Assembly: GCA_026706395.1 (NCBI GenBank)
Contig: JAPOYU010000064.1
Span: 1 to 64,000 of the forward strand
Direction: 5' to 3'
Length of the DNA: 64,000 nt
Source of the DNA: Chloroflexota bacterium
GTDB taxonomy: Bacteria; Chloroflexota; Anaerolineae; Aggregatilineales; Phototrophicaceae
The number at the start of each line of letters is the position of its first letter. The stretch's first letter is position 1. This document shows positions 61,687 to 62,557 of this stretch, piece after piece. The position numbers and the translations under genes were made by a program. Below the pieces are notes generated by a model that saw nothing but the letters and a program-made list of their open reading frames with translations, searched no databases and was not told the origin of the DNA.

Positions 61687-62557
61687 TTAGACAACGCTCG
61701 TGCCGCAGTCATAATTTGTGATTAGCAACTCGTTCACCGCTCCTCTTTGGTCGCTCTTGCAATTGACCATTCGCGGCGCTTGTACCTTCTCGTCCCTAAA
61801 AATAGAATCCGCATACAGTTCACGGATGAAGTCCGTATCACTGTTGGACAGCATGAACTTGGCGCCTCGCTCGTGAAGTTCACGGCAGAGGTCACGAAGC
61901 GATTTCTGCTCAGCTTCCGCAAAACCGCCTACGGCATAACTGGTGAAGGATGAAGTTTCACTTAGCGGGTGATAGGGAGGATCAAAGTAAACAAAATCAT
62001 TTTCACCTGCCTCGACTTCGGTAAAGTCCATCGCGCGCAGTTCAGCGCCGCGCAAAGCTATATGGCAGGCGCGCAAGATATCCGGTTGACAAATTGCGGG
62101 CTTGGAAGAACTCCCTATCGGCACATTGAACTCGCCCCGACTGTTGACCCGCCACAAGCCGTTGTAGCAAGTCTTGTTGAGGTAGATAAAACGCGCGGCT
62201 ATCTCGATACGGTCATCGAGAAGATGTTGATTGCGGATCTGGTAGTAGTAATCGGAGTTGTGATTCTCGGCGTGTTGTCTCAGCTTGCGGATGAGGGGCT
62301 CGGGATCGCGCTGAACAACCTGATAAGTGTTGATCAAGTCAAAATTGATATCGCTTAAGTATGCCCCCCCCCCCCGTTAATTCTTTATTATTGTGCAGCG
62401 CGAAAAACAGCGCCCCGCCGCCGACGAAGGGTTCGTAATAGTTGTTGAATTTGGCCGGAATACGCTCCAGCAATTCCGGCAGCAGACTGCGTTTGCCGCC
62501 CACCCACTTGACGAAGGGTTTGGCGTTATGAAAATCCGGCAGAGGCGGTTGAGACAT
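61687..62557 (-). CDS. D12-class (Dam-like) adenine-N6 DNA methyltransferase, frameshifted at poly-G
   Basis: Two frames together give one methyltransferase of about 289 residues. The start (ATG 62557) encodes the AdoMet site [14 protein letters not shown] and [11 protein letters not shown]. The second frame encodes [14 protein letters not shown], the recognition helix region and catalytic DPPY ([12 protein letters not shown]). They are out of frame by one base at a run of 12 G (62375-62364). With 11 or 14 G the reading is continuous. All key residues of the GATC-type family are kept, so it is likely functional when in phase. The upstream open frame to 62851 is an artefact of a 9-bp repeat. 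Confidence 0.8.
62364..62375 (-). repeat. Poly-G tract of 12 inside the methyltransferase gene
   Basis: Twelve C on the plus strand, twelve G in the coding strand, between the NNKELT and AYLSDIN codons. Homopolymers of this length slip readily in replication and are the usual switch of phase-variable genes; they are also prone to sequencing error. Confidence 0.9.

Follow-up and report, generated by a model that had tools for sequence, protein, structure and literature searches.

A candidate contingency locus in Chloroflexota: a Dam-type adenine methyltransferase gene split at a poly-G tract

Background

Is a methyltransferase gene that breaks at a run of 12 G a dead gene, a misassembled one, or one state of a switch? 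The question is raised by a locus in the window, by which we mean the whole stretch of 64,000 nucleotides analyzed here. A first-pass annotation of this DNA had described a Dam-like D12 methyltransferase whose 2 intact halves are joined out of frame at exactly 12 G, and had proposed a slipped-strand switch of adenine methylation that would form a phasevarion, of which it knew no description in Chloroflexota. From comparison with related sequences, we consider a contingency (phase-variable) Dam-family methyltransferase, switched at the poly-G tract, to be the very likely reading of this locus.

A methyltransferase gene interrupted at 12 G

The window gene is a D12/Dam-type N6-adenine methyltransferase gene, split by 12 G and OFF (out of frame) in the assembly (Table 1). 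Its N- and C-terminal halves match consecutive parts of the family profiles, namely positions 1-44 (4.7e-11) and 46-242 (1.6e-45) of Pfam MethyltransfD12 (PF02086), and TIGR00571 (dam) at 2.3e-16 and 9.4e-65, respectively. The break therefore sits at the tract with little of the domain missing, and the description of 2 intact halves holds. The KWVGGK, motif I, and DPPY sequences required of the Dam family are present, and a full-length relative, P0005, scores 289.5 bits with TIGR00571 vs a cut-off of 114.85. A stop codon in the C-half frame, a single base ahead of the tract, prevents any reading of the two halves as one frame, and the junction is out of frame at exactly 12 G as first annotated. 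The gene thus carries a long simple repeat within its open reading frame (ORF), the length of which sets the frame.

Table 1. Features of the methyltransferase locus and its neighbors in the window
Feature	Position	Strand	Remarks
Dam/DpnM-type (D12) adenine methyltransferase locus	61687..62557	minus	Out of frame (OFF) in the assembly
N-terminal half ORF, 72 aa	62339..62557	minus	KWVGGK and EPFVGGG motifs; stop at 62339 (ORF call), soon past the tract
12-G tract (poly-C on the plus strand)	62364..62375	minus	Proposed slippage switch
C-terminal half frame	61687..62375	minus	In-frame stop codon one base upstream of the tract; ends at 61687 (ORF call)
69-aa ORF with GRHKCAYCAYE (CxxC) motif	61465..61674	minus	Next gene downstream; starts 12 nt past the stop codon of the methylase
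Small membrane-type protein	61070..61417	plus	No Pfam match
Polyphosphate-kinase-like gene, 713 aa	58770..60911	minus	Downstream neighbor; putative assignment
Dehydrogenase E1 component gene	62878..63909	plus	Divergent neighbor; synteny marker

A first-order Markov model with the tract removed predicts 0.0009 G-runs and 0.0035 C-runs of at least 12 in the window, or ~0.004 G or C runs of at least 12 per window, and all other G or C runs in the window are of 6 or fewer. The tract is exceptional in length only. An excess of 7-G words in the window was also considered and rejected, with 6 found vs 7.04 expected by chance.

GATC is the predicted target. The recognition-loop pattern N-L-R-P is present, as in DpnM and E. 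coli Dam. No clear sign of GATC avoidance was found in the window, where GATC occurs at 0.84 of expectation and several other palindromes are similar.

We modeled P0005 from an alignment of 77 rows (pLDDT 88.9, pTM 0.88), an earlier model from 22 close relatives having been poor (pLDDT 53.6). The GGG residues at 64-66 of the model lie in a loop between a helix (49-56) and a strand (68-72). DpnM (2dpm) was the best match in the PDB by both sequence and fold, and the alignments of DpnM and Dam show a gap where the Gly loop stands. Two to 6 consecutive Gly residues occupy the hinge in 21 of 22 aligned full-length relatives, with none in P0051, and the loop therefore seems tolerant of length change.

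Tract length and reading frame among relatives

Among the best 120 of 8000 scored protein matches, close relatives form 2 size groups, one of about 282-314 aa and the other mostly of 206-242 aa, and many of the short ones open with an out-of-frame peptide leading into a Gly-run (MKEELIWRGGGQAFLSD and similar). The N-terminal motif is missing in 38 of the 70 best matches, the window's own included, and in 4 of the next 50. At about 60-80% identity, the relatives split into full-length and truncated classes, where some of the truncated proteins may owe their shortness to contig ends, P0049 is actually in frame, and P0067 was scored as truncated in one comparison solely through the KWAGGK spelling of its motif.

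At the DNA level, genome contigs were scanned, followed by 98 genomes of the related family. The clade loci belong to metagenome-assembled genomes (MAGs) titled Anaerolineae or Chloroflexi. The clade gene was identified in 28 of the 98 genomes, giving 29 copies with the window; outside these 28 stand G094, with the N-half only, and 8 genomes with D12 proteins of 38-50% identity. Both sides of the hinge are readable in 25 of the 29 copies (window included), of which 8 are ON, 10 are OFF by one base, and 7 are OFF by two, 17 OFF in total. The 3 frames are evenly used, as for random lengths (chi-square p 0.76). The frames of L199 and L217 are not fixed by the G-run alone because of a foreign stretch or N's at the hinge, and the split without these 2 copies is 8, 8, and 7. 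A run of 9-15 G stands at the hinge in 22 of the 25 readable copies, the exceptions being L197 (GGCGGGGGG, in frame), L199 (an unrelated stretch), and L213 (an interrupted run). The L217 hinge has G-runs plus N's and extra sequence.

Over the 29 loci (99,450 bases, contig-edge junk included), G/C run lengths are bimodal, with 3 runs of 7, 1 of 8, and 2 of 9, then 27 runs of 10-16. The remaining 4 of the 29 copies (L205, L215, L216, and L218) begin at a contig edge that falls at the tract or close to it. The contig edges, N's, G/C palindromes, or foreign stretches near the tract look as if assemblers had met mixed lengths.

Outside the clade, we searched the 300 bases that follow KWxGGK. Where this motif could be read, none of 68 cellular and none of 73 viral relatives has a run of at least 8 G at the hinge, and the nearest viral relative has 56% identity. 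The motif could not be read in L020, one of the 69 cellular loci L012-L080, or in 7 of the 80 viral loci. L010, tested apart, is without a hinge tract. Two runs of 8-9 G in outside-clade relatives fall within motif I itself. Within the clade, the repeat is kept and variable while the rest of the gene is conserved.

Codon usage bears on why the run is kept. Outside the tract, Gly is encoded by GGC in 321 of 447 codons and by GGG in 43. GGG is therefore rare, yet the pure run is kept across species, which points to selection on the G-run itself.

These counts weigh on the possibility that the genes are in frame everywhere and that the tract length is miscalled by sequencing or assembly. A poly-G of 12 is error-prone and hard to assemble, and the 4 of 29 copies starting at a contig edge, together with 2 more that hold N's or a foreign stretch, fit such an error. 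Mostly right consensus sequences would, however, leave an in-frame majority, and the in-frame copies amount to about the third expected of random lengths. Further, among the protein matches listed, 9 from the clade lie on contigs over 1 Mb (probably long-read, judging from size), and 6 of these are truncated and 3 full, although the cause of truncation is not visible in P0046 and P0068. Miscalling also leaves unexplained the long pure G-run in most readable copies when GGC is the preferred Gly codon. We regard this explanation as quite unlikely.

A second alternative keeps the assemblies as they are and has programmed slippage of RNA polymerase or the ribosome make some full-length enzyme from every tract length, with the tract setting dosage instead of a genetic on/off state. 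Long homopolymers are able to cause slippage in transcription, and the tract is kept in all 3 frames, both as such a mechanism would have it. G-runs are, however, poorer slippage sites than A-runs, and a fixed length would do, yet lengths range from 9 to 15. Programmed slippage is, in our judgment, unlikely.

Selection and descent of ON and OFF alleles

If the cell had no further use for the gene and the frameshift were neutral, OFF copies should decay, which would push their dN/dS up. The median dN/dS of the C-half is 0.145 for OFF-OFF pairs (95 pairs) and 0.192 for ON-ON pairs (27 pairs), from non-independent pairs with dS under 2.5 and with L209 and L218 left out. By this measure, OFF alleles are under purifying selection like ON alleles. 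A pseudogene would suit a window copy without a nuclease partner (see below), and L209, with a further internal stop, and L213, with its broken tract, suggest that some OFF copies may be decaying. Against it, both halves are intact in nearly all OFF copies, the OFF dN/dS is low, and ON relatives are interspersed, so that we hold the pseudogene explanation to be very unlikely. The first-pass annotation had named as contrary evidence a fixed 12 G in relatives combined with decay of the gene; this was not seen, as lengths vary and both halves are conserved.

A tree built from 71 protein rows requires a minimum of 18 changes of ON/OFF state among 65 rows, with P0049 wrongly labeled here too. Counted per label, the minimum is 19 for each vs shuffled means of 22-24, and 15 of 500 shuffles for OFF and 58 of 500 for ON were as low as observed, indicating slight clustering of states. 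The state thus follows descent on this tree to a small degree and is otherwise close to random.

Near-identical genes are found in differing states. L208 (12 G, OFF) and the full-length P0034 do not differ at any of the 200 C-half and 50 N-half residues that were compared. They lie on contigs of 140,545 and 140,465 bases, respectively, and could be 2 assemblies of one sample; P0034 is known as a protein alone. A second pair, the full P0017 and the truncated P0027, shares 95.9% identity across 219 residues. The slipped-strand switch proposed at first sight is thus favored by the mixture of frames, the kept and variable tract, and the low OFF dN/dS among relatives, and phase variation is well supported by this comparison of assemblies.

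Neighboring genes and the putative nuclease partner

Synteny was assessed by simple ORF calling in 10 clade loci with long flanks (L001-L009 and L011). The polyphosphate-kinase-like gene lies downstream in all 10, the E1 dehydrogenase ORF lies upstream in 7 (2 further loci begin close to Dam), and the gene for the small membrane protein is present in 4; the window has all 3.

A nuclease gene, assigned by motif with 3 representatives profiled, lies downstream of the methylase in 19 of the 29 copies, 15 being PDDEXK_11-like and 4 MutH/Sau3AI-like, and none was found in the other 10. The one MutH/Sau3AI-like neighbor that was profiled matches Pfam MutH at 3.7e-13 and the Sau3AI model at 55 bits vs a cut-off of 300; the kinship of these 4 neighbors supports GATC as the target, at scores short of the equivalog cut-offs. 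In contrast to what a Type II system would show, no nuclease gene adjoins the window methylase. The annotated role as a methylation regulator needs qualification, since most relatives carry a nuclease downstream as in a Type II locus, and restriction may have been no less an ancestral output than gene regulation. The clade locus looks like a phase-variable Type II restriction-modification lineage.

A full-length nuclease gene is kept in 9 OFF copies. These count against a switch, because an OFF methylase beside an active nuclease would be dangerous unless the nuclease were silenced too. For pairs including a nuclease kept in OFF copies (dS below 2.5), nuclease dN/dS is about 0.04-0.15, values that are rough because most dS exceed 1; the MutH-like pair L212/L214, both OFF, gives 0.10. 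Nuclease presence was not significantly associated with the ON state in the readable copies (7/8 ON, 9/17 OFF, Fisher p 0.18).

The junctions suggest how both genes could fall silent together. Of the 19 nuclease-bearing copies, 15 have a direct junction, with no more than 16 nt between the methylase stop and the nuclease start, and in 9 of these 15 the nuclease starts exactly 8 nt past the stop codon, while a 70-aa ORF intervenes in the remaining 4 (L197, L198, L203, and L213). The methylase stop lies inside TAGGAGG in 5 junctions (L194, L212, L214, L215, and L216), GGAGG follows it in L211, and most others have purine-rich variants, that of L202 being poor. Judged from these sequences, the geometry is that of translational coupling. 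We infer that the nuclease would be co-silenced in the OFF state, which would allow OFF cells to survive.

The CxxC ORF, which had no convincing family match in the window, occupies the position held by the nuclease gene in many relatives. It is present in 9 of the 10 nuclease-free copies, the tenth (L218) beginning at a contig edge, and also in 4 of the 19 nuclease-bearing copies. Its product might have an accessory or regulatory role at the locus, and the window copy looks like an orphan derivative without nuclease, paired with the CxxC protein. In L218 (G079:C297), the methylase C-terminus, WVNRGSI, resembles the PDDEXK_11-type nuclease end WVNRGNL, as if fused by deletion.

Proposed mechanism and relation to known systems

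In the contingency locus that we favor, slipped-strand mispairing at the poly-G during replication would alter the tract by whole bases. One third of lengths would join the halves (ON), and two thirds would stop translation soon after motif I (OFF). As the tract would encode a Gly-run in a length-tolerant loop, several lengths could yield a functional enzyme. Adenine, most likely that of GATC, would be methylated in ON cells and left bare in OFF cells; any regulon under such control, and with it a phasevarion, would be presumptive. In relatives, the OFF state would probably also lower translation of the nuclease, because a ribosome-binding sequence lies at the methylase stop and the nuclease usually lies directly downstream, so that restriction and modification may switch together. 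For the window copy, without nuclease, the output would be the methylation state alone. A more far-reaching version has the tract silence, through translational coupling, both genes of a Type II GATC system, so that a system in which loss of the methylase is normally lethal could switch without harm; this would hold family-wide, with orphans such as the window copy as pure methylation switches. It is tentative, and we lean somewhat against it.

In Type IIG and Type III systems, loss of the methylase disables the nuclease too. Homopolymer tracts also switch DNA methylases in Campylobacter jejuni, where cj0031 is a Type IIG enzyme (PMC4889913) with a polyC/G tract (PMC4687069), and in Helicobacter pylori, where Type IIG and Type III genes carry homopolymer tracts (PMC3936762). 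Unlike these, the present clade has separate methylase and nuclease genes in an ordinary Type II layout. The closest match that we found is a Mycoplasma agalactiae CpG (m5C) methyltransferase with a mid-gene poly(G) of 6-11; one strain has the entire active gene and many have it truncated, with length variation shown by fragment analysis (PMC9465063). Both are Type II-class methylase genes switched, or here putatively switched, by an internal poly-G. That enzyme, however, is a cytosine methylase of a mycoplasma, whereas ours is of the N6-adenine Dam/DpnM type, in Chloroflexota, and mostly with nuclease genes downstream. ON/OFF switching of a methylase is likewise known from the mod phasevarions of Haemophilus, Neisseria, and Moraxella, which differ in being Type III and in having reported regulons (review, PMC13076061). 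The clade enzymes share family, fold, and the N-L-R-P recognition-loop pattern with DpnM and E. coli Dam (2dpm and 2g1p) and differ from both in having a Gly loop, absent from DpnM and Dam at that place.

Most of the phase-variable methylases known so far come from host-adapted pathogens and mycoplasmas and are mainly of Types I, III, and IIG, and that 2026 review describes representation in Type II systems as limited (PMC13076061). The claim of novelty in the phylum agrees with our search. The open-licence PMC matches listed for phase variation and Chloroflexi, Chloroflexota, or Anaerolineae include none that deals with such switching in the phylum; 4 papers (PMC3711429, PMC6329791, PMC10924106, and PMC13190605) carry such wording in passing or in reference lists. 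Similarly, by title or start of abstract, none of the open-licence PMC matches listed on phase-variable Type II, Dam, or poly-G methylases concerns a poly-G-switched Dam-type gene.

A poly-G stands at the same place in a Dam/DpnM gene in more than 20 Chloroflexota genomes. If the switch is real, contingency loci would extend to an uncultured lineage that probably includes animal symbionts, and GATC methylation in metagenomes would be bimodal between cells. The locus also poses the question of how a cell survives when the methylase of a Type II pair is switched off, to which the ribosome-binding sequence at the methylase stop suggests a testable answer.

Hosts and other poly-G loci

The clade family probably includes sponge symbionts. 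The COS1 and COS3 bins are probably from the sponge Coscinoderma, a link suggested by the bin names; a sponge survey includes Coscinoderma, and its text did not yield the bin code (PMC8163846).

The Dam tract is not the sole poly-G locus, since carriers are richer in G-runs of at least 9, with a median of 19.5 in the 28 Dam-clade carriers vs 5 in the 70 others (98 genomes, family of G001). This excess may reflect additional poly-G switches or assemblies of lower quality. Near position 1500 of L245 (G076), a 380-aa multi-pass membrane-type ORF meets a 164-aa ORF in another frame at a 9-G tract, a possible second phase-variable gene in a carrier genome. Poly-G also stands beside the start, or at the end, of related, secreted-looking repeat proteins in L184, L186, and L248 (G010, G005, and G076, respectively), possibly surface proteins under poly-G control, and L224, L233, L235, and L243 have sequence common to 3 genomes (G001, G076, and G077) at poly-G runs. 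Elsewhere in the window, a 496-aa ORF (26419-27909), which we take to be of solute-binding type, consists of 2 nearly identical tandem halves.
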